From Gemmatirosa kalamazoonensis (GTDB lineage Bacteria; Gemmatimonadota; Gemmatimonadetes; Gemmatimonadales; Gemmatimonadaceae), in the NCBI RefSeq assembly GCF_000522985.1, contig NZ_CP007128.1:4324220-4388219 (forward strand): 64,000 bases of DNA, given 5' to 3'. Shown here one piece after another: positions 3,238 to 21,214 of this stretch. The translations under genes and the position numbers were made by a program. Positions within the stretch are counted from its first letter, which is position 1. Each line of letters starts with the position of its first letter. Under the pieces are notes generated by a model. It saw only the letters and a program-made list of their open reading frames with translations, was not told the origin of the DNA and did not search any database.

Positions 3238-4599
3238 TCAGAGCTTGATCGCGACGTAGGTCTGCTTGCGCAGGGAGTCGAGGAGCCGGCGCGCGGTCTT
3301 CGCCTCGCCGATCTGCTGCCGGAGCACCTGACGCGCCTCGTCTTCCGGGTAGTCGCCGGCGGGCGTCGCCGCCGTCACGCGCAGCACCACGTACTTCGTG
3401 AGGTTGTTCGTCAGGTCGGGGAGCGCGAACGGCCCGACGATCGCGTTCGCTCCCTGGGTGCCGATCGCCTGCGAGTATGCGGCCGGAACCGAGTCGCGCG
3501 GCAGGTCGGGCAGCACGACGTTCTCGATCGGGTCGTGGTGCTTCGTGACGAGCGAATCGAAGTTCGCGCCCTTGTCGAGCGCCGCACGCACGCTGTCCGC
3601 CTCGAGCTTCGCGCGCACGACGTCGGCCGAATCGATCTTCGGACGAATGAGAATGTGGCGCGCCTTCACCTCGGACGGCTGCGCGCGGTCGACGCGAATG
3701 ATGTGGAAGCCGTACGCCGTCTCGACGATCGGGCTCACGCGACCGACGGGCAGCGCGAACGCCATGTCCTCGAACGGACGCAGCATGACGCCGCGCCGGA
3801 ACCAGCCGAGGTCACCGCCCTGCGCCTTCGATCCCGGGTCCATCGACTCCCGCTTCGCGATCTGCTCGAAGTCACCACCCTTCGAGATCTCCACGAGCAG
3901 CGACTCGGCCTTCGCGCGCGCGGCGGCCTTCGCGGCCGGCGTGGGCTTCGGCGCGACGACGATCTGCTTGAAGCTGATGCGAGCCTCGCGCTTCGGCAGC
4001 GTGGCCTTGCTCTGCTGATACGCCTCGGTGACCTCGCCCTCGCTCACCGGCGCGGGCGAGAGCTTGCCCTCCTGCTTCAGCTTGCGAAAGACCTCCTGCT
4101 GCAGCTGCTGCCGGCGCAGGATGTCGAGCTGCTTCTTGCGATAGTCCTCGGGCGTGCCGAAGCCGGCCTTCTTCAGCTCCGACCGGAACTCCGCCTCGCC
4201 CGAGAATCGGCTGCGGATGTCGGCCATGCGCCGGTCGATGGTGCGCTCGAGATCATCGTCGCTCACCTCGACCTTCTCTTCCTTCGCCTTCTGCACGAGC
4301 AGCTCGGCGTCGATCATCTCGCTCAGCACGCTCGCCTCGAGCTTGGCGAGCGCCGCCGAGTCGGTCGGGACCTCCAGCCCCTGCGCGCGGCGCGTGAGCA
4401 CCTCGTCGCGCAGCTCGCTGTACAGGATCGGCTGATCGCCGACGATCGCGACGACGCGGTCGACCTCGATGGGCCCCGTGGCCGGCGGCGTGGCCGGCAC
4501 GGCGCTCGGCGTGGACTGAGCGGCGGCCGGCGCGGCGACGGCAGCGACGAGCGCGACGAGGGCCGCGCGAGAGCGGACGAGATGATGGAGACGGCGCAT
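3238..4599 (-). CDS. surA: SurA-like periplasmic peptidyl-prolyl isomerase/chaperone
   Basis: A 453-residue exported chaperone for outer-membrane proteins. An N-terminal signal peptide (basic [11 protein letters not shown], then an Ala/Val/Leu core ending APAAAQS, about residues 1-29) precedes the SurA N-domain ([18 protein letters not shown]). A canonical parvulin domain follows ([10 protein letters not shown] ... [12 protein letters not shown] ... [16 protein letters not shown]). The second parvulin-like segment, starting ARHILIRPK, is degenerate. The ATG at 4599 was chosen because it begins the signal peptide; the frame stays open upstream but only over the antisense shadow of the neighbour. 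It lies between another parvulin lipoprotein gene and pdxA. Confidence 0.9.
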
Positions 4600-4625
4600 G
4601 GGCGTGTCGTACCCGGGTGAAACGA

Positions 4626-4653
4626 CCGGGGTCCGAGCGCGCTCGGACCCCGG
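4626..4653. repeat. Perfect 28-bp palindrome between the two parvulin genes
   Basis: Each 14-bp half (CCGGGGTCCGAGCG and its complement) is exact with no spacer. It lies in the 74-bp gap between the upstream parvulin lipoprotein stop (4674) and the surA start (4599). As RNA it would give a GC-rich hairpin without a U-run, so it could be an attenuator, a processing or stability element, or a protein-binding palindrome. Confidence 0.6.
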
Positions 4654-4673
4654 CTGGTTACCGCGTCCGGCCA

Positions 4674-6203
4674 TCAGGGCCGCTTCGCGTCCGGCGTCGG
4701 AGCGCTCGGCGGCGGCGTGTTCGGCGCGGGAGCGTTCGGGGCAGGCGTCGCACCGCCCGGGAGCGGCACGGCGGTCGGCGGCTGGCCGGCCGCACGCGAC
4801 GAGTCGCGCGTCGCGCGCACCTGCGCCGCGCGCTCGAGCGCGCGATCGAGACCCGCGTCGTTCATCTTCCACTCGTACTTCTCGCGGAGCGCGCGCTCGA
4901 CGGGCACCGGCATCTGCACGAACTCGGCGCGCTGCTGGGTGAGCTTGTCCAGGTACGCCTCGATGCGGGAAGCCGCGAGCTTCTCGCGATCGCCGTCGGT
5001 CTTCGCGCTGTCCTTCAGCGACGCGGGCGCGACGCCGAGGCCGGCCCACAGCTGCGCGACCGCACCGACGAACGTGCGGCGGAGGTTGTTCATCTCCGCG
5101 GTGTCGAGCTGGATCTTCGCGCTGTCGGCCTGCTTCAGCAGGAGCTCGTTCCGCGCGAGCTGCTTCACGAAGACCTTCACGATCGAGTCCGGCGCCTGCT
5201 GGACCTGCCCGCGCATCTGCTGCGACTGCGGCAGCGAGGCGAGCCAGTCGGCGACGCGCGACGCCTTCAGGTCGCCGGCGCTCGACGTGGCGAGCACCTT
5301 GTCGTCCTTCATGTGCCCATCGACGTCGGCGGCGATGGACTTGGCCCACAGCGCGGCGTCCGGCTTCACGTCGATCTTGCCCTTCGCCTCGAGGCCCGTG
5401 AGGTACGTGCTCTCGGCGACCTGCCGGCCGCGGCCGGACATGGCCTGGCCGAACTGGTTGGCGACCTCGGCGTACGTCGGGCGATAGATGATGTGGTAGC
5501 CGTAGGGGGTCTCGACGAGCGGCGAGATCTGCCCCGGCTGCAGCGACGTAACGCCCTTCTCGAACTGCGGCATCATCGCGCCCTTCGGGAAGATGCCGAG
5601 GTCACCGCCGCGCGCCGCCGAGCCCGGGTCGCCGCTGTTCTTCTGGGCGAGCTGGGCGAAGTTGCCGGTGTTCACCTGGGCGCGGATCGCCTCGGCCTTG
5701 CGGCGGACGGAGTCCTTCACGTTCTGCGGCACCGTCACGCCGGGCTGCCCCGGCTGGGCCCCGGGCGGCGTCGGGAACGAGAACAGGATGTGCCGCGCGG
5801 CGAGCATCTCGCCGGAGTTGTACCGGGCCGCGTAGCCCGCGGTGTCGTTCGCCGGCACCTTGGCGAGGACCTGCTCGCCGAGCTTGCGGATGCGCTCCAT
5901 GGCGACGATGGCCCAGAGCGCCTTGTCGACGACCTTGGGATCGCTCAGCGAGTCGCCGCGGGCGGCGGCGGCGCCGACGAGCTGGTAGTCGATCCAGAGG
6001 CTGGCGACGTTCTTCGCGACCTCGCGCCCCTGCGCCCCCTGGATGGGGATCTGCGGGGCAGCGCCGAGGAGCGTGCCGAGGCGCTCGATGGAGAGCTCGT
6101 TGGAAGCCGCCTTGGCGACGGTGTCGACGTGCGCCGTCAGCGCGCCCTCGCAGGCCGAAAGTGCGGCGATGGCGGCGACAACGAGGATTCCCTGGCGTTT
6201 CAT
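4674..6203 (-). CDS. Parvulin-type peptidyl-prolyl isomerase lipoprotein
   Basis: A 509-residue protein starting [18 protein letters not shown]; the LSAC lipobox implies lipidation of Cys18 and a periplasmic location. The central parvulin domain is clear ([14 protein letters not shown] ... [31 protein letters not shown] ... [16 protein letters not shown], about residues 165-295). Long helical flanks resemble the SurA/PpiD N- and C-domains. The C-terminus is a Pro/Ala/Thr-rich tail. The ATG at 6203 is preferred over upstream in-frame starts because it creates the lipoprotein signal. It probably works with SurA, encoded 74 bp downstream, in outer-membrane protein folding. Its client set cannot be told. 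Confidence 0.82.
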
Positions 6204-6290
6204 GGACACCTGCGCGCGGTGGGTTTTTTGTGGGGTGAGTAGCGCGCCGCGGCGGGGCGCCGGAGAACGCACCGGCGCGCGGCGCTGCCG

Positions 6291-9200
6291 TCAGGGGAGG
6301 AGGCTACGGAGCGCGCGAACGAGTCCGGACAGGATCTCGGCGCCGCCGAGTCGCGTGAGCTTGAGCGCGAGCGGCTGGGCGCGGCGAATCTCTACCTGGA
6401 ACTGGACATCGTGGAACGCCCCGCCGAGCGCCTTCATCCGTGGCACGGCAGAGTCTCGGAAAGTAACACGAGCCTCGTCTCCGCGCACCAGAATCCCCTC
6501 GACGCCGAGCGCGCCCCCGATCACCCGGAGCTGAGCGGTGGCCAGAAACGCGTCCGCTGGCTGGGGGAGCGGGCCGAAGCGGTCGCGGATCTCGGCCCGC
6601 AGCGCCTCGATCTCGTCGGGCGTAGTGAGCTGCCCGAGCCGCCGGTACAGGTCGAGCTTCGCTTCCTGGGAAACCACGTACTCGTCCGGCAGGTACGCCG
6701 GCCGGTCGAGCGACACGTCGCTCGGCACGAGCTTCGGCGCGCCGTCGCCCTGGACCACGTGCCGCACCGTCTCGTCGAGCATGCGCATGTACATGTCGAA
6801 GCCGACGGCGTGCACGAAGCCGCTCTGCTCGGGGCCGAGCAGGTTGCCCGCGCCGCGCATCTCGAGGTCCTTCAGCGCGACGCGGTAGCCGGCACCGAGC
6901 TCGGTGTGGTGCTCGAGCACCGCCAGCCGGCGCTCCGCGTCCTCGTCGATCGAATCGGGGACGAGCAGGTAGCAGTACGCGCGTCGGTGCGAGCGGCCGA
7001 CGCGGCCGCGGAGCTGATAGAGCTGCGCGAGGCCGAAGTGGTCGGCGCGGTTCACGAACATCGTGTTCGCGTTAGGCACGTCGAGCCCCGTCTCGACGAT
7101 GAGCGTCGAGACGAGGACGTCGACCTCGCCGCTCGCGAACTTGTGCATCACGTCCTCGAGGTCGCGCTCGCGCATCTGCCCGTGGCCGACGGCGACGCGG
7201 GCGCGCGGGGCGAGGCGCCTGACGTGATCGGCGATCGCCTCGATGGTCTCGATGCGGTTGTGGACGAAGAAGACCTGCCCGCCGCGGTCGAGCTCCCGCG
7301 CGATTCCCTCCTCCAGCAGCCCGTCGTCCCACGGCTCGACGAACGTGAGCACCGGTGAGCGGTCGCGCGGCGGCGTCTGCATCAGCGTCATGTCGCGCAG
7401 CCCGGCGAGCGACTGGTGCAGCGTCCGCGGGATGGGCGTCGCGGTGAGCGTCAGCACGTCGGTCTCGAGCTTGAGCTGCTTGAGCCGCTCCTTGTGCTTC
7501 ACGCCGAAGCGGTGCTCCTCGTCGACGATGATGAGGCCGAGGTCCGAGAAGTGAACGTCCGGGCTGAGAAGGCGGTGCGTGCCGATGACGACGTCCACCT
7601 TCTTCGCCTTCAGGTCCGCGAGCAGGACGGTCTGCTGCGACGCCGTCTGGAAGCGCGACATGACGTCGACGCGGATCGGGAAGTCCGCGAAGCGCTCGCT
7701 GAACGTGCGATGGTGCTGGTCGGCGAGAATGGTCGTCGGCACGAGCACCGCGACCTGGCGACCGCTCTGCACCGCCTTGAACGCGGCGCGCACCGCGATC
7801 TCGGTCTTGCCGTAGCCGACGTCGCCGACGAGCAGACGATCCATGGGGCGCGCGCCTTCCATGTCGCTCTTCACGTCGACGGTGGCCTTGCGCTGGTCGG
7901 GCGTGTCTTCGAACAGGAACGAGCTCTCGAGCTGCCGCTGCCACGGCGTGTCGGGAAAGTGCGGCGGGCGCGTCGCGACGCGACGCCGCGCGTAGAGCTG
8001 CAGCAGCTCGACGGTCATCTCCTGGATCGCCGCGCGCGTCTTCTCGCGCTGCTGCGACCAGCGCTTGCCTCCGAGCTTGTGCAGCCGCGGCGCGGGCGCG
8101 TCCTCGCCGACGTCGCCGGCGCCGCGGTAGCGCTCGAGCAGGTCGAGCCGGTAGAGCGGCAGATTGAGCTTGTCGCCGCCTTCGTACTCGATGACCGCGA
8201 CCTCGATGGTGTTCGTGCCGACGAACTTCGTCTCGATGCCGCGGTAGATGCCGACGCCGTGCTCCAAGTGCACGACGTAGTCGCCCGGCTTCAGCGCGAC
8301 GCCAACGTCGAGCGCGGTGCCGGCGGCGTAACGACGGCTGCGGCGGATGCGGCGCTCGCGGCGGAAGACCTCGTGGTCGGTGAGCACCCGCAGCGGCGAG
8401 CCGGTCGCGGGCGGGATGAGGAATCCGCCGCCCAACACGCCGATGACGAGCGCCGCCGGCGACGGCGACGAGAGCCGCCACCGCTCCTCGGCCTCGCTCA
8501 ACAGCTCGTCGAGGCGCTCCGCCTGCCCCTGGTTGTCGCAGAGGATGATCGTCGGCACGCCGTCGCGCACGAGGCGGCGAAGCGCGCGGATGTCGCGGTT
8601 CACCGGCTCCGGCGCGCGGATCGGGAAGCCGACGTCGGGCGACGATTCGACCTCGGCGACGGTGCCGAAAGCGGCGATGGTCCGCGCGGCGTGCTCGGGC
8701 GCGACGAACAGCTCGTCGCGGTGCGGTACGTCCTCGCCGCGGCGGCGCGCGAGCTCGACGTGATGCTGCGTCTCGTCCCACGTGCGGCGCAGCTCCGCGG
8801 GCAGGTCGACGCCCCGCGGCACGAACACCACCGTGTCGGGCGGCCACAGGTCGGCGATGGAGAGCCGCTCGAAGCCGCTCGACTCGTCGCGCACGCCGCC
8901 GTCGACGGGCAGGATGAGCGCGACCTCGGCGGCGCGCGTGGAGCGCTGGCTGAACAGGTCGAAGTGGCGCAGCTCGACGACCTCGTCGCCCCAGAACTCG
9001 AGCCTAACGGGTTCGGCCATGCCGAAGCCGTACACATCGAAGATGCCGCCGCGCACGGAGAACTGCGCGACGTCCTCCACCATCGGCACGCGCTCGAAGC
9101 CGATCCGCTCGAGATGCTCCGCGAGCTCCTCGGGGCGCCTAACGTCGCCCTTGCGCAGCTCCAAGCGGGCGCCGGCCAGCGCGCGCGGCAGACGCGTACG

Positions 9201-15966: not shown

Positions 15967-16974
15967 ATGCCCCAACAGACCGCTCCCTCCTCCGACGCGC
16001 CGCGCTACGTGGTCGGCGTGGACCTCGGCGGCACGAACATCGTCGTCGGCGTGATGCCGGAGGACGGCAGCCGCGAGATCGCGATGCGCTCGCAGCCGAC
16101 GCGCGCGGACCTCGGCGCCGACGTCGTCGTCGACCGCATCTGCCAGATGGTGGAGGACGCGATCACCATCGCCCGCGCCGAGACGGGCGCGACGCGCGAG
16201 CAGTTCGTCGGCGTCGGCGTCGGCGCGCCGGGACCGCTCGACCGCGGCAGGGGCGTGGTGCTCATCGCGCCGAACCTCGGCTGGCGCGACCTGCCGCTGC
16301 GCGCGCTCATCATGGACCGCGTGGGGCTCGCCGCGACGCTCGACAACGACGCGAACTGCGCGACGTTAGGCGAGTGGTGGACGGGCGCCGCGCGGGGCGC
16401 GCGCAACGTCGTGGGGATCACGATCGGCACCGGGATCGGCGGCGGCTTGATCCTCGACGGCCGGCTGTACCACGGCTCGTCCGACATGGCCGGGGAGATC
16501 GGTCACATGACGATCGACTCGAACGGCCGCCGCTGCAACTGCGGCAACTACGGCTGCCTCGAGGCGTATGCGTCGGGCCCCGCGATCGCCGAGCGCGCGC
16601 GCGAGGCGATCAACGCCGACGAGCCGTCGGTGCTGTCGTCGCTCGTCGGGGGAAAGCTGGAGCGCATCACGGCGCAGACGGTGTACGAGGCGTCCGAGAA
16701 GGGCGACCCGCTCGCGCGCGAGGTCGTGCGCGACACGGCGCGGTTCCTCGGCGCGGGCATCGCGAACCTGCTGAACACGTTCAACCCCGACTGCGTGGTG
16801 ATCGCGGGGGGCGTGACGCAGGCGGGCGACGCGCTGTTCGAGCCGCTGAACGCCGAGGTCCGACGCCGGGCCTTCCGCCCGGTGGTGGAGGCGTGCCGCA
16901 TCGTGCCGGGGATCCTTCCGGGCTCGGCGGGCGTGGTGGGCGCGGTCGCGACGTTCCTCCAACAAAATCAGTGA
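15967..16974 (+). CDS. ROK-family sugar kinase (glucokinase type)
   Basis: A 335-residue cytoplasmic kinase. The N-terminal ATP-binding loop is VVGVDLGGTNIVVGV (residues 14-28). The catalytic Asp is in the LDNDANCATLGEWW segment, followed by GITIGTGIGGGLILDGR. The ROK signature has the zinc ligands H...CNCGNYGCLE (about residues 179-200). The combination fits bacterial glucokinase, which makes glucose 6-phosphate; N-acetylmannosamine or fructokinase activity is possible. The start is ATG at 15967. It is followed by a family-A hairpin and a PfkB-type kinase. Confidence 0.9.
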   Translation: MPQQTAPSSDAPRYVVGVDLGGTNIVVGVMPEDGSREIAMRSQPTRADLGADVVVDRICQMVEDAITIARAETGATREQFVGVGVGAPGPLDRGRGVVLIAPNLGWRDLPLRALIMDRVGLAATLDNDANCATLGEWWTGAARGARNVVGITIGTGIGGGLILDGRLYHGSSDMAGEIGHMTIDSNGRRCNCGNYGCLEAYASGPAIAERAREAINADEPSVLSSLVGGKLERITAQTVYEASEKGDPLAREVVRDTARFLGAGIANLLNTFNPDCVVIAGGVTQAGDALFEPLNAEVRRRAFRPVVEACRIVPGILPGSAGVVGAVATFLQQNQ

Positions 16975-16986
16975 GCTCCGAGAATT

Positions 16987-17063
16987 CTCCACGCCCCACG
17001 CTCCACGCTCGGCGTGTTTGCGGCAGCATGGTGAGCACGGAGCGCGGAGCGTGGAGCGTGGAG
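16987..17063. repeat. Hairpin of CTCCACG-type units (family A) ending at a start codon
   Basis: The left arm 16987-17010 (CTCCACG units) pairs with 17040-17063 (CGTGGAG units) at 22 of 24 positions, with a 29-nt loop. The GGAGG at the end of the right arm directly precedes the GTG start of the next gene (17066), so the likely ribosome-binding sequence lies inside the stem. Confidence 0.85.
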
Positions 17064-17065
17064 GA

Positions 17066-18049
17066 GTGACGCGGAAGAAGCGGTTAGGCGTCATCGGGAC
17101 CTTCGTCTGGGACGTGATCCACGGGCGCGACGTGCGCACGGCGCCCGTGCAGGAGTGGGGCGGCATCACCTACGCGCTCGGCGCGCTCGACGCCGCGCTG
17201 CCGGACGACTGGGAGATCGTGCCGCTGATGAAGGTGGGGTACGACCTCCTCGACCGGGCGCAGGAGTTCGTGCGGTCGCTGCAGCACGCCGCGCCCGACG
17301 CGGCGCTCGTCGAGGTCCCGTACCCGAACAACCGCGTCGAGCTGTTCTACTACAGCAGCGAGCGGCGGAGCGAGATCCTGCACGGCGGCGTGCCGGGGTG
17401 GACGTGGCTCGGCCTGAAGCCGATGCTCGACGACATCGACGCGCTGTACGTGAACTTCATCGCGGGCTTCGAGATGGACATCGAGACCGCGCAGCTGCTG
17501 CGGCAGCACTTCAAGGGCGTGATGTACTGCGACCTGCACTCGCTGCTGCTCACCGTCCAGCCGGGCGGGCTGCGCACGCCGCAGCCGCTGCCCAACGCGT
17601 CGGCGTGGTTCCGCTGCTTCGACGTGCTGCAGGTGAACGAGGACGAGATGGCGCTGCTCGCGCCCGACCCGATGGCGCTGGCCGCGAGCGCGCTCGGCAA
17701 CGGCGTGCGCTGTCTCATCGTCACGCTCGCGAAGCGCGGCGCGGTGTACTTCGCGCAGCCGGACTTCGACGGGCTCACGTCGCTCGCGGGCCGCGCGCCG
17801 GGCGAGCCGGTGGTGCCGGCGTTCGGGCCGGTGCGCACGGCGCTCGTGCCGTCGGAGCGCACCGTGACGCTCGGCGACCCGACGGGGTGCGGCGACGTGT
17901 GGGGGGCGACCTGTTTCTCCGCTCTGCTCGCCGGTGCTAACTTGACGGACGCGATCGTGGCCGCGCACCGCGCGGCGGCACGCAACGTCGAGCACCGGGG
18001 CGCGTCGGGGCTCGCGGCGTTCCTGCGGGGCGAGATCCACACGGCGTAG
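17066..18049 (+). CDS. PfkB/ribokinase-family carbohydrate kinase
   Basis: A 327-residue protein beginning (V)TRKKRLGVIGTFVWDVIHGRD, the ribokinase-like N-terminus. It ends with the PfkB signature region LGDPTGCGDVWGATCFSALL, in which the GCGD Asp is the expected catalytic base. Between them is an acceptor region with EEWGGITYALGAL-like order (QEWGGITYALGALDAALP). The GTG at 17066 directly follows GGAGG in the hairpin arm; spacing is unusually tight, so an upstream TTG (17018) remains possible. The substrate cannot be assigned; divergence from classical ribokinases is considerable. It lies downstream of the ROK kinase. Confidence 0.78.
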   Translation: MTRKKRLGVIGTFVWDVIHGRDVRTAPVQEWGGITYALGALDAALPDDWEIVPLMKVGYDLLDRAQEFVRSLQHAAPDAALVEVPYPNNRVELFYYSSERRSEILHGGVPGWTWLGLKPMLDDIDALYVNFIAGFEMDIETAQLLRQHFKGVMYCDLHSLLLTVQPGGLRTPQPLPNASAWFRCFDVLQVNEDEMALLAPDPMALAASALGNGVRCLIVTLAKRGAVYFAQPDFDGLTSLAGRAPGEPVVPAFGPVRTALVPSERTVTLGDPTGCGDVWGATCFSALLAGANLTDAIVAAHRAAARNVEHRGASGLAAFLRGEIHTA

Positions 18050-18059
18050 CTGCGCACCA

Positions 18060-18106
18060 CGTGGCTGCGTGACAAGCGGCATGCAGCCACGTCCCACGCA
18101 GCCACG
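18060..18106. repeat. Short hairpin of CGTGGCTGCGTG units between co-directional genes
   Basis: CGTGGCTGCGTG (18060-18071) is complementary to 18095-18106, and extra copies of GCAGCCACG occur within and after the right arm. It lies between the PfkB-like stop (18049) and the next ATG (18119). It has the same architecture as the longer hairpins but a different unit. Confidence 0.7.
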
Positions 18107-18118
18107 CAGCCATCCTTC

Positions 18119-19051
18119 ATGACCACCGTCATCACCGTTCCTCCGTCGCTCGACGACGCGACGTTCGAGCAGATCTTCGAGCAGCTCGCGACGCTCCCGC
18201 CGGACGCTCGGCTGCTCGTCGACGCGCGGCACGCGCGGTGGGCGTCGCCGTACGGGCTCACGGCGCTGCTCGCGCTCGCCCAGTCGCGCGAGGTTCGGCC
18301 GAGCTTCGCGCCGCCGGATGCGGAAGACACGGTGAGCTACTGGGCGCGCACCGGCTTCTTCCGGCACGCGGAGCGGCTGTACGACTTCGGGCGGCCGGTG
18401 CCGCGGGCGCGCGCGGCCGGCGAGTCGAGCGTGCTGCTGGAGCTCACGTCGGTCTCGCAGGCGGGGGACGTGCACGAGGTCGTGGAGCGGATCCAGGAGC
18501 GCTCGAAGGCGATCCTGCACGACGGGCTCGGGCTCGACGCGCGCGCGACGATCGGGTTCTCGATGACGCTCTCCGAGGCGTGCCAGAACATCGTGGAGCA
18601 CGCGGGGCGCGGCGGCTGGGTGGCGGTGCAGACGTACACGTGGCGCAAGCGACTCGGCCGACGCGTGGTCGTCATCGCCGTCTGCGACGCGGGGATCGGC
18701 TTCCGCCGGTCGCTGGAGCAGAACTCGTCGCGCCCGCGCGGCGACCGGTGGGACGACGGGCAGGCGCTGGAGGCGGCGCTGCTCCGCAACGTGAGCCGCT
18801 TCCCCGACCCCGGCCGGGGCCAGGGGCTCGCCGGGATCCGGCGCTTCATCTCGAAGTGGGACGGCAAGTTGAGCATCCGCAGCGGGACCGCGCGCATCGC
18901 CATCGTGCCGCCGTGGGACGACGACGAGCCGCTGGCCGAGCGCCTGCCGTACTTTCCGGGGGCGCAGGTGCAGATCACCATCCCCGAGACGGCGCCCGCG
19001 CCCCATGGCGGCCCGAAGGCTGCGTCTGCTGCTCGCAACACCGCATTCTGA
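18119..19051 (+). CDS. STAS-like plus HATPase_c regulatory protein (anti-sigma-kinase-like)
   Basis: A 310-residue protein. Residues 1-90 resemble a STAS fold (LLVDARHARWASPYGLTALLALAQ). Residues about 130-260 carry a GHKL ATPase domain with an N-box (LSEACQNIVEHAG), the G1 box CDAGIGF and a G2-like GQGLAGIRRFISKWDGKLSI. No HisKA or transmembrane segment is present. Such proteins are typically Ser/Thr kinases acting on anti-anti-sigma partners. The next two genes, the first also STAS-like, are tightly linked (7-bp gap, then an ATGA overlap), suggesting one partner-switching module. No sigma factor gene is adjacent. Confidence 0.72.
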   Translation: MTTVITVPPSLDDATFEQIFEQLATLPPDARLLVDARHARWASPYGLTALLALAQSREVRPSFAPPDAEDTVSYWARTGFFRHAERLYDFGRPVPRARAAGESSVLLELTSVSQAGDVHEVVERIQERSKAILHDGLGLDARATIGFSMTLSEACQNIVEHAGRGGWVAVQTYTWRKRLGRRVVVIAVCDAGIGFRRSLEQNSSRPRGDRWDDGQALEAALLRNVSRFPDPGRGQGLAGIRRFISKWDGKLSIRSGTARIAIVPPWDDDEPLAERLPYFPGAQVQITIPETAPAPHGGPKAASAARNTAF

Positions 19052-19057
19052 GGCGCC

Positions 19058-19636
19058 GTGATTCACCACCACATCGACCTTGGCTCGGTGCTGCGCGGGA
19101 CGGTGTGCGCGCTGTACTCGAATCTGGTCACGCGTCCCACCGGTGCGGCCGTCCGCACGGAGATCGAGCGGGCGATCGCGGACCTCGGCGGACGTACGAT
19201 CACCGTCATCGACTTCTCGCAGGTGATGCTGCTCGATTTCTCGTGCGCCGACGAGATCGTCGCGAAGCTCATGCTGCGCGCGTGCGCGGGGTGCGAGGTC
19301 GAGGAGTACTTCCTCTTCCTCGGGCTCGGCGAGCGGCACCTCGACGCCGTGGAGCAGGTGCTGGAGCGGCAGCGGCTCGCGATCGTCGCGGTGATGGACG
19401 GGACGGCGTCGCTCGTGGGCGACGTGGACGCGCCGACCCGCGCCGTGTGGGAGGCGCTCCGCGACGCCGGACCGAGCGACGTGGCGACGCTGGCGGCGAC
19501 GCTGCACGCGCCGTCGCGGGACGTGGCGGAGGTGCTGGAGGCGCTGTGCCGGCGGCGGCTCGCGGTGCGGCTGGGCGACGACTACGCCGTGATCGGCGCG
19601 TACGTGCCACCGACGGCGCCGGAGGCGGCGGCATGA
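19058..19636 (+). CDS. STAS-like/winged-helix protein of the partner-switch trio
   Basis: A 192-residue protein starting GTG at 19058. Residues 1-105 look STAS-like or DUF4325-like: the strand/turn segment TITVIDFSQVMLLDFSCADEIVAKL has the buried D-F-S-x-V pattern of anti-anti-sigma proteins. Residues 125-185 form a helix-turn-helix-like region (AVWEALRDAGPSDVATLAATLHAPSRDVAEVLEALCRRRLAVRLGDDYAVI), typical of a winged helix that reads partners or DNA. It lies directly downstream of the ATPase-like gene and overlaps the next gene by 4 bp. The function is inferred from architecture only. Confidence 0.6.
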   Translation: MIHHHIDLGSVLRGTVCALYSNLVTRPTGAAVRTEIERAIADLGGRTITVIDFSQVMLLDFSCADEIVAKLMLRACAGCEVEEYFLFLGLGERHLDAVEQVLERQRLAIVAVMDGTASLVGDVDAPTRAVWEALRDAGPSDVATLAATLHAPSRDVAEVLEALCRRRLAVRLGDDYAVIGAYVPPTAPEAAA

Positions 19637-19953
19637 GCGGGTTGTATCGTCGGCCCCAGAGCGCTCGTCCTCTCCGGGTGGAAGGGTTCGTCGCCTCGCG
19701 GCGCGAGGACGCGGAGCGGGGGCCGCAGGTGCGGCTCCGCGCCGACCACGCGCGCGAGCGGATGCTGATCGACGGGGAGCTGGCGCTCGTGGAGGGGCCG
19801 CGCGGGCAGCAGCTCGCGCAGGTCCGGATCGACGACGCGGTGCCGCGCGGCGGCGTGATCGTGCGCGACATCGGCGGCGTGTCGCCGTCGGAGATCGTGT
19901 ACGTGATGAAGCCCGACCTCGACGCGCCGCCGCCCAACCGCACGTTCGCCTAA
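19633..19953 (+). CDS. Small beta-rich protein of the regulatory trio, unknown function
   Basis: A 106-residue protein whose ATG (19633) overlaps the previous stop (ATGA), so translation is probably coupled. The sequence is beta-strand rich (ERMLIDGELALVEGPRGQQLAQV, then VPRGGVIVRDIGGVSPSEIVYVMKP). It faintly recalls the double-psi barrel of molybdopterin-dinucleotide-binding domains, but I would not assign it. No membrane segment or Cys motif is seen. It ends with GCCTAAC across its stop codon. Confidence 0.6.
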   Translation: MSGLYRRPQSARPLRVEGFVASRREDAERGPQVRLRADHARERMLIDGELALVEGPRGQQLAQVRIDDAVPRGGVIVRDIGGVSPSEIVYVMKPDLDAPPPNRTFA

Positions 19954-20017: not shown

Positions 20018-21214
20018 ATGGACACCTCCTCCGCCCCCGCCGCCGTGACGCCGGGCTTCTCGACCGTCGCCGTCCACGGCGCCCGCGTGCTCCGCGACGA
20101 CGCGTCGGACGGCGCCGAGCGCCCGGCGGGCCGTCCCGTCGTCACGCCGCTCGTGCAGTCGGTGAACTTCACGCAGCCGTTCGGGACGGAGGACGGGCTG
20201 CGCTACACGCGCTACGGCAACGTGCCGAACGCCGAGTCGGTGCAGACGCGGCTCGCGCTGCTCGAGGGCGCGGAGGCGGCGCTCGTGTGCGCAAGCGGCA
20301 TGGGCGCGACGGCGTGCACGATGCTCGCCCTGCTCCGCCCCGGCGACCATCTGCTGTCGAGCGCGTGGATCTACGGCGGCACGCACAAGCTGTTCACGCA
20401 GGAGCTGCCGGCATTCGGCGTAGAGGTCACGTTCGTCGACCCGACGAAGCAGCGCGACTGGCGGCGCTCGGTGCGCAAGACGACGCGCGCGGTGTTCGTG
20501 GAGTCGCCGGTGAACCCGACGACGCGCGTGCTCGACCTGCGGCCGCTGGCGCGCATGTCGAGCGAGCTCGGACTCGCGCTCGTCGTCGACTCCACCTTCG
20601 CGAGCCCGATCAACTTCCGGCCGCTGGAGCACGGCGCCGACGTCGTGATCCATTCGGCGACGAAGTACCTCAACGGCCATCACGACGTGCTCGGCGGCGC
20701 GGTCGCCGGCGCGGCGTCGGTGATCGAGGAGGTGCGACAGAAGATGATCGTGTGGGGGCAGGCGCCGGATCCGTTCGCGTGCTGGCTGCTCGAGCGGGGC
20801 ATGAAGACGCTCGACGTGCGCGTGCGCCGTCAGTCGGAGAACGCGCAGCGGCTGGCGGAGTGGTGCGAGTCGCGCGGCGAGATCGCGCGCGTGCTGTACC
20901 CGGGGCTGCCGTCGCACCCCGACCACGACGTCGCGCGCGACACGCTCGACGGCTTCGGCGGGATGATGGCGATCGAGCTGGAGGGCGGCGGCGAGGCCGC
21001 GGAGCGCTTCGTGAAGCGTCTGCGGGTCATCACGCACGCGCCGAGCCTCGGCGGCGTGGACTCGCTCGTGAGCGAGCCGCGCTACACGTCGCACGCGCAC
21101 CTGACCGTTGCCGAGCGCGCGAAGGCGGGCGTGCCGGACGGGTTCCTCCGCATCAGCGTCGGCATCGAGAACGTCGAGGATCTCATCGCCGACGTCGAGC
21201 AGGCGCTCGCGTGA
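20018..21214 (+). CDS. PLP-dependent trans-sulfuration enzyme (O-succinylhomoserine sulfhydrylase / cystathionine gamma-synthase type)
   Basis: A 398-residue Cys/Met-metabolism PLP enzyme. The N-terminal FSTVAVHGAR and YTRYGNVPN segments, the PLP-phosphate loop CASGMGATACTMLAL and the Schiff-base Lys in VIHSATKYLNGHHD (Lys about 213) are visible. The substrate-site Arg lies in FLRISVGIEN. The family includes MetB, MetY, MetZ and MetC, which are hard to separate by eye. The lack of a second Met gene nearby gives no clue. The role is methionine biosynthesis from an activated homoserine, or cystathionine cleavage. It overlaps ftsE by 4 bp (GTGA). Confidence 0.88.
   Translation: MDTSSAPAAVTPGFSTVAVHGARVLRDDASDGAERPAGRPVVTPLVQSVNFTQPFGTEDGLRYTRYGNVPNAESVQTRLALLEGAEAALVCASGMGATACTMLALLRPGDHLLSSAWIYGGTHKLFTQELPAFGVEVTFVDPTKQRDWRRSVRKTTRAVFVESPVNPTTRVLDLRPLARMSSELGLALVVDSTFASPINFRPLEHGADVVIHSATKYLNGHHDVLGGAVAGAASVIEEVRQKMIVWGQAPDPFACWLLERGMKTLDVRVRRQSENAQRLAEWCESRGEIARVLYPGLPSHPDHDVARDTLDGFGGMMAIELEGGGEAAERFVKRLRVITHAPSLGGVDSLVSEPRYTSHAHLTVAERAKAGVPDGFLRISVGIENVEDLIADVEQALA

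Follow-up and report, generated by a model that had tools for sequence, protein, structure and literature searches.

The nearest described systems to the gene pair reported here are two switches built from a kinase and a STAS-domain substrate, both presented in the main text of one report (EMBO J 2026; PMC13373217). In CapK-CapS, named 'controller of associated pathways' (PDB 9z71-9z73), the kinase CapK phosphorylates one STAS serine of CapS, a DNA-binding repressor; the dimer of CapS dissociates and is released from its promoters, and direct action of the pair on DNA was demonstrated (PMC13373217). According to the same main text, CapK Trp68 is the reported residue for single-stranded-DNA stacking and sensing, CapS Asn145 and Lys151 are reported to contact DNA, Gly169-Gly170 lie in the CapS wing, deletion of the CapK N-terminal helix-turn-helix (HTH) had no effect, and an immune operon follows 348 of 443 capKS pairs (PMC13373217). 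In VapKSC, a CapS-like STAS protein with a short tail, VapS, holds and inhibits the VapC toxin (PMC13373217). The word Gemmatimon- is absent from the main text of that report, as distinct from its datasets, and a literature search that left subscription journals and preprints mostly outside returned no earlier account of the present pair in Gemmatimonadota. Here we describe P1 and P2, two adjacent genes in a stretch of 64,000 nucleotides from Gemmatirosa kalamazoonensis (the window; contig NZ_CP007128.1, positions 4,324,220 to 4,388,219). We consider it probable that they are a relative of the CapK-CapS switch, passed on vertically and probably seated on the chromosome, in which P1 would phosphorylate P2 at Ser62 and toggle the output of P2 upon a metabolic or growth signal.

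P1 (window positions 18119-19051, + strand, 310 amino acids) is a CapK-like kinase with a STAS domain at about residues 1-95 and a GHKL/HATPase domain at about 105-290. P2 (19058-19636, + strand, 192 amino acids, GTG start) is CapS-like, with a STAS-like domain at about residues 1-115 followed by a winged helix at about 121-182. Searches of the PDB with P1 and P2 profiles returned weak matches only, among them CapS (9z71) at 0.023. On plasmids P2 had no match and P1 had one, a Sphingobium ATP-binding protein (E 2e-4); the gene after this kinase encodes a MarR-like protein that matches DUF4325 weakly. Relatives of the Sphingobium plasmid protein are found on 40 (kinase) and 47 (STAS plus winged helix-turn-helix, wHTH) plasmid records from Enterobacterales, Vibrio, Acinetobacter, Pseudomonas and others. 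In three of the five plasmid loci examined (Sphingobium, Klebsiella and Acinetobacter), genes for multiubiquitin or E2 and for ThiF follow downstream; by annotation neither the Vibrio nor the Pseudomonas locus has any of these, and no kinase was identified at the Pseudomonas locus. The second protein of the Klebsiella plasmid pair (L161) is CapS, identical to PDB 9z71 over 181 residues. Alignment with hhalign of the P2 family against plasmid CapS (5 rows) gave a probability of 95.7% and E 9.8e-9 over P2 residues 30-174; the P1 family against plasmid CapK (4 rows) gave 99.2% and E 3.3e-19. Judged by these profiles, P1 is homologous to CapK and P2 to CapS.

The joint alignment places P2 Gly29, Asp60, Ser62 and Glu66 on CapS Gly21, Asp52, Ser54 and Glu58, and each is kept in 46/46 P2 sequences. 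Ser62 (codon at 19241-19243, + strand) is thus the counterpart of the phosphorylated CapS serine. Likewise, P1 Glu153, Asn157 and His161 correspond to CapK Glu214, Asn218 and His222, each present in 45/45 P1 sequences, Asn157 (codon at 18587-18589, + strand) being the N-box asparagine. The output and sensing residues of CapKS tell a different story. At the CapK Trp68 column all 45 P1 rows have a gap; a Trp anywhere within the first 25 residues occurs in 4/45, and position 11, beside the Trp68 place, holds Leu 39 times and Phe 6 times. Of the CapS DNA contacts, Asn145 is conserved in 0/46 P2 sequences and Lys151 in 1/46 (Arg in 5). The Gly169 and Gly170 columns are gaps in 46/46, yet a Gly-Gly stands within the last 40 residues of 16/46. 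P1 starts at its STAS domain and the CapK N-terminal HTH is absent, as it also is from the Sphingobium kinase homologue as annotated. The best reading of these alignments is a phosphorylation core that would be intact, with a sensor and an output that appear to have diverged.

Domain searches and structural models agree with the STAS-GHKL layout of P1. The protein matched HATPase_c in Pfam (E 8.5e-7), HATPase_c and HATPase_c_2 were matched by 45/45 members of the P1 alignment, and STAS_2 by 11/45 (best 1.2e-5). PADLOC gave a DrmA match (1.6e-11) across the GHKL region. In the AlphaFold model (predicted local distance difference test, pLDDT, 81.2; predicted template modelling score, pTM, 0.83), residues 103-293 align with SpoIIAB (1l0o; Z 13.8, root-mean-square deviation, rmsd, 2.8 A, 135 aligned), and residues 1-93 with TM1442 (1vc1; Z 8.7, rmsd 2.8, 89 aligned), a relative of Bacillus stress-response STAS proteins. 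SpoIIAB and other anti-sigma kinases are the best structural matches of P1. Asp190, Gly192, Gly194, Gly234 and Gly236 are each kept in 45/45, and we take them to be its nucleotide boxes. Position 43 of P1's own STAS domain sits just before the second STAS helix. Of the 45 sequences, 32 have Ser there, 10 Asp, 2 Thr and one Asn; the Asp looks as though, in some families, a phospho-site had become locked into mimicking phosphorylation. Since Ser43 varies, the candidate for an invariant acceptor is the serine of P2. Position 175 is aromatic in 43/45 (W 35, Y 7, F 1) and lies near the place of CapK Lys237/Lys239, position 178 is R/K in 43/45 and position 181 is R/K in 45/45. We conjecture that aromatic 175 and basic 178 and 181 may replace CapK Trp68.

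The P2 model (pLDDT 85.3, pTM 0.81) shows strands and helices in a STAS-like order, followed by a wHTH with block means of pLDDT of 92-98 over residues 111-180. Ser62 stands at the N-end of helix 61-76, downstream of strand 47-52. Structure matches for P2 in the PDB are mostly winged helices, and no CapS structure is among them, which is uninformative given that the structure set closes on 8 April 2026; the wHTH aligns with MarR/ArsR-type domains, for instance 2nyx (Z 10.6, rmsd 1.0, 58 aligned). Members of the P2 family matched several wHTH families, and at E<=1 TrmB was matched by 10/46, MarR_2 by 7/46 and STAS_2 by 5/46 (best 0.0034). The first-pass annotation of this DNA had read P1 as a STAS-plus-GHKL protein and P2 as a STAS-like/winged-helix protein, and had tied its proposal to the presence of a STAS fold in at least one of them; both descriptions agree with the models and the Pfam matches, and a STAS part is seen in P1 and in P2 alike.

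The two domains of P2 are kept to different degrees. Among 143 P2 proteins, which are loci and not species, some of them doubled across two collections (e.g. L044, L127), the STAS part was matched in 143/143 and the wHTH in 140/143 at E<=1e-3. The three that fall short (L053, L061, L062; one borderline at 0.0012) retain the STAS part and Ser62. In genus g5 the short P2 is an open frame of 122 amino acids in two genomes, so an assembly slip was ruled out. Mean pairwise identity over 42 P2 sequences is 0.28 in the wHTH vs 0.52 in the STAS part, and the net charge of the recognition helix averages -0.5 in P2 vs +2 to +3 in four CapS.

We examined the distribution of the pair in 200 genomes of the phylum, 194 of the window's class and 6 of another class (family f10), at thresholds of E<=1e-3 for P2 and E<=1e-20 for P1. 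A scan of the order had found P2 in 118/121 genomes. In the 200, P2 was found in 190 (190/194 of the class and 0/6 of the other class), P1 was likewise found in 190/200, and the ten genomes without P1 are the same ten without P2: two of family f8, one of f2, one of f5 and six of f10. A single match per genome is usual (P2 189/190, P1 186/190). The four class members that lack both at these thresholds are G158 and G199 (f8), G067 and G157; as both sampled f8 genomes lack P1 and P2, loss in this family is suggested. Recurrence of P1 and P2 across the class also led us to drop a pseudogene or frame artefact as an explanation of the two frames. Because the two proteins occur in the identical 190/200 genomes, and lie in one stretch in 40/40 loci inspected, their linkage is far beyond chance. 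In a P1 tree the grouping of the families takes 8 changes for 9 groups, the minimum, which is what vertical descent would give. A contig scan with P2 confirmed 482 relatives; the best 80 of the 482 are nearly all labelled Gemmatimon- or Roseisolibacter, with Roseisolibacter sp. H3M3-2 as the top match. Also among these best 80 are two loci (L099, L114) from unidentified bacteria. A contig labelled Candidatus Kuenenia stuttgartiensis (L093) carries a Gemmatimonadota-like P2 and is probably a mislabelled bin.

The G. kalamazoonensis genome measures 7.48 Mb in four contigs, and the window lies on the 5.31-Mb contig. Upstream of P1 stand two conserved neighbours on the + strand, a ROK family glucokinase-like gene (15967-16974; TIGR00744 ROK_glcA, 247.9 bits, just under the cut-off of 260.35) and a PfkB family carbohydrate kinase gene (17018-18049; PF00294, E 2.2e-11). 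Downstream, also on the + strand, is a pyridoxal phosphate enzyme of the cystathionine gamma-synthase type (CGS; 20018-21214; PF01053, E 1.9e-122), a neighbour in several families. Besides ROK, PfkB and CGS, the scanned neighbours in the window comprise, by Pfam, LepA, glycosyltransferase 9, an ATP-binding cassette (ABC) ATPase, FtsX and an M23 peptidase, the ABC ATPase being FtsE-like by position. PADLOC at E<=1e-5 gave no defence match in seven of these eight scanned neighbours, and for the ABC neighbour ATPase-type matches only (best mad3, 1.8e-27); it had no match for P2 or P3. Neither an adjacent immune operon nor a sigma factor is found among the eight scanned window neighbours.

To see how far this layout extends, 40 loci from eight families were compared in 12.5-kb stretches fetched by their P2, so that P2 is present in 40/40 by construction and LepA may fall outside the stretch. 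P1 occurs in 40 of these loci, PfkB in 39, ROK in 38, LepA in 30, CGS in 29 and P3, the gene after P2 in the window, in 15, all from the window's own family, f1. Overlaps and gaps were counted in loci, not species, a few loci again entering twice from two collections, with the own-family set made of the 15 f1 loci and the best 80 contig-scan loci, taken as the same family. PfkB and P1 overlap in 78/82 own-family-set loci and 15/23 others (93/105 overall); in the window they are 69 bp apart. P1 and P2 overlap in 74/89 and 15/25, respectively, and lie no more than 20 nt apart in 86/89 and 20/25, with the kinase gene first. P2 and CGS overlap in 11/16 loci outside f1. The first-pass annotation had described three tightly coupled genes at 18119-19953 without a sigma factor, and had asked whether their homologues stay linked. 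Three + strand open reading frames do fill this interval, P2 and P3 share the ATGA overlap it noted (19633-19636), the P1-P2 linkage holds in every locus of the comparison, and the scanned neighbours are free of sigma factor genes; the gap it gave as 7 bp between P1 and P2 is 6 bp by the frame coordinates (19052-19057).

Its third gene fared less well. P3 (19633-19953, + strand, 106 amino acids) is a small protein of the Molydop_binding type, which from that class we take to be a double-psi beta-barrel. Molydop_binding was matched by 34/34 scanned P3 family members (best 7.8e-9) and CDC48_N by one at 0.04, and the P3 profile matches trimethylamine N-oxide and dimethyl sulphoxide reductases. 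P3 resembles Molydop_binding and CDC48-N type barrels by profile; unlike them, it stands alone at about 89-116 amino acids, without an attached molybdoenzyme. It is present in 69/69 family f1 genomes and convincingly nowhere else among the 200, three genomes outside f1 giving weak matches inside large open reading frames. P3 as a general third component was therefore rejected: it is an add-on of one family, and the unit seen class-wide is ROK-PfkB-P1-P2 in place of the proposed three-gene module.

A hairpin repeat occupies 18047-18112 of the window (fold z -5.3), in the space separating PfkB from P1, two genes that overlap in most relatives. Exact copies of its 13-nt core number 9 in the genome and 0 in a reversed control. 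Of the other eight copies, seven have an inverted octamer array nearby and one has, in the stretch inspected, a tandem array only; several of them seem to be placed after a stop codon. Arrays of the same octamer are found genome-wide, a three-unit pattern giving 113 exact (overlapping) matches vs 0 in the reversed control, and one array of the same genome spans about 270 bp (C2:2591661-2591933). The arrays are possibly an expanding octamer hairpin repeat.

Taken with the homology to CapK-CapS, these features suggest the following scheme. P1 would be a serine kinase of the GHKL type to which a STAS domain is fused, and would be expressed together with P2 from what looks like a ROK-PfkB-P1-P2-(P3)-CGS operon. 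It would phosphorylate P2 at Ser62, at the start of the STAS helix, and by homology with CapS this may break a P2 dimer or free P2 from a partner. P2 so toggled would switch its output, which in most species would run through the winged helix at its C-terminus. The operon points, by association only, to sugar and sulphur amino-acid metabolism, and on its account the signal is most likely a metabolic or growth state and not the guarding of an immune cassette.

Several points weigh against this scheme. Pfam gives P2 weak backing: for the copy in the window there is no match, and the STAS-like family DUF4325 (PF14213) was matched by just 10/46 members at E<=1, with a best value of 0.0012. By Foldseek the STAS part of P2 matches RsbS (6jhk_A) with probability 1.00 and a template modelling score by target of 0.58, but its E of 0.055 is weak. 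The GHKL fold is common to anti-sigma factors and histidine kinases, and so the action of P1 as a kinase on P2 is something that we infer. In the P1 tree, neither f1 nor f2 can be split from the rest at a single branch, and the CapK sequences are joined by long branches. Two f6 loci have P1 and P2 518 and 1334 bp apart with other DNA between them. The metabolic role, finally, is drawn from the operon alone.

Three other accounts of the pair were weighed against the scheme. Were the complete CapKS function preserved, P1 would sense single-stranded DNA after DNA damage and P2 would be a DNA-binding repressor of its own or other operons. We regard this as unlikely. The homology of both partners speaks for it, as do the confidently modelled wHTH with its MarR/ArsR-type alignment and its near-universal presence, the aromatic and basic residues of P1 that could stand in for Trp68, and the Gly-Gly pairs near the end of some P2 proteins, which make a Gly-Gly wing possible there. 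Against these stand the missing Trp68, Asn145 and Lys151, a recognition helix without the positive charge of CapS, and a wHTH that is less conserved than the STAS part; no convincing shared palindrome was seen either, ROK-PfkB (15 regions) and P3-CGS (12 regions) intergenic stretches containing no shared dyad. A dyad in the 200 bp upstream of ROK (6/92 regions vs <=2 in simple pair shuffles) was not used, the loci being related and coding sequence included. The same evidence bears on the proposal of the first-pass annotation that the switch acts directly on DNA: the homologous CapK-CapS pair does so, according to the main text of its report (PMC13373217), but P2 lacks the CapS DNA-contact residues and three of its relatives have no wHTH match. 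DNA binding thus seems not to be needed everywhere, some P2 lineages being without a clear wHTH. Domains of this kind change their contacts freely, so direct DNA binding by P2 is possible, although conservation of residues does not back it.

With an output of the VapS kind, P2 in its unphosphorylated form would retain a partner protein, such as PfkB, P3 or one encoded elsewhere, until P1 set it free. This is rather doubtful, if less so than the complete CapKS function. VapS itself, a short-tailed STAS protein that inhibits VapC in the published account (PMC13373217), offers the precedent, and both the three P2 proteins that keep Ser62 without a clear wHTH and the frequent PfkB-P1 overlap accord with it; in the window, however, no PIN nuclease gene stands beside the pair, and P3, absent outside one family, cannot be a general partner of P2. 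Least probable of all, and in our view quite improbable, is a classical sigma partner switch with P1 as the anti-sigma factor of an unlinked sigma and P2 as its antagonist. The structural matches of P1 to SpoIIAB and other anti-sigma kinases are in its favour, and the genome does encode sigma factors (five sigma70 region-3 matches above the curated cut-off, all away from the locus). But no sigma gene lies among the scanned neighbours, a wHTH on P2 is foreign to such a design, and another locus fits the role better. At C2:3.987-3.990 Mb (L165, G000:C2:3983700-3994700, at about 4000-6500, - strand) an RsbV-like STAS gene, called by eye from its open reading frame, an RsbW/SpoIIAB-like kinase gene and a SpoIIE phosphatase gene adjoin as a classical partner-switch set. 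With separate RsbV-, RsbW- and SpoIIE-type genes side by side, P1-P2 is not the genome's only sigma-switch candidate.

A bolder form of this scheme can be put forward tentatively, as a guess that we hold below even chances. P1-P2 might be a class-wide core switch of the CapKS kind with a non-immune role. Its kinase would respond, by way of a re-built groove (aromatic 175 and basic 177-181 in place of Trp68), to some metabolic or nucleotide signal connected with the ROK-PfkB operon, and the switch would act on a partner protein or on promoters of a new set. If this were true, immune CapKS and VapKSC would be mobile forms of a housekeeping design that is older than they are. That a related pair is fixed in nearly every sampled genome of the class, within a metabolic operon, suggests that kinase-STAS switches also serve housekeeping. 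P1 and P2 supply a divergent natural sequence set with which the phosphorylation core can be told apart from the sensor and the output. The pair is moreover a candidate core regulator for its phylum, which to our knowledge has few studied regulators.

Compared with known systems, P1-P2 shares the kinase fold of P1 and a STAS acceptor serine with SpoIIAB/RsbW and their partners SpoIIAA/RsbV, and differs from them in that no sigma factor or SpoIIE phosphatase is linked among the scanned neighbours, a STAS domain is fused to the kinase and P2 carries a wHTH. As the first-pass annotation supposed, this would be a pair of the partner-switch type without a linked sigma factor. With VapKSC, as far as the main text of its report describes it (PMC13373217), the pair has in common a STAS-GHKL kinase that lacks an HTH, as well as a STAS substrate whose Ser/Thr is conserved, and the shortened P2 seen in some lineages is reminiscent of VapS; the P2 of the window, unlike VapS, has a winged helix, and the third gene is P3 and not a PIN nuclease. 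The closest likeness is to CapK-CapS, where a STAS-GHKL kinase gene directly precedes a STAS-wHTH gene, an order from which the two f6 loci depart, and where acceptor serine and N-box asparagine stand at matching positions in partners that are both homologous by profile-profile comparison. The fusion of a winged helix to a STAS-like part, which had been called unusual, is indeed so, but the main text on CapK-CapS provides its precedent (PMC13373217). P1-P2 is not classed as CapKS because, although it has these core features, it lacks the sensor residue, the DNA-contact residues (Lys151 persisting in a single P2), the N-terminal HTH and the immune context. CapKS pairs, in that main text, stand mostly beside immune operons (PMC13373217), whereas P1-P2 is found across its class, nearly always in single copy, in a sugar-kinase operon.

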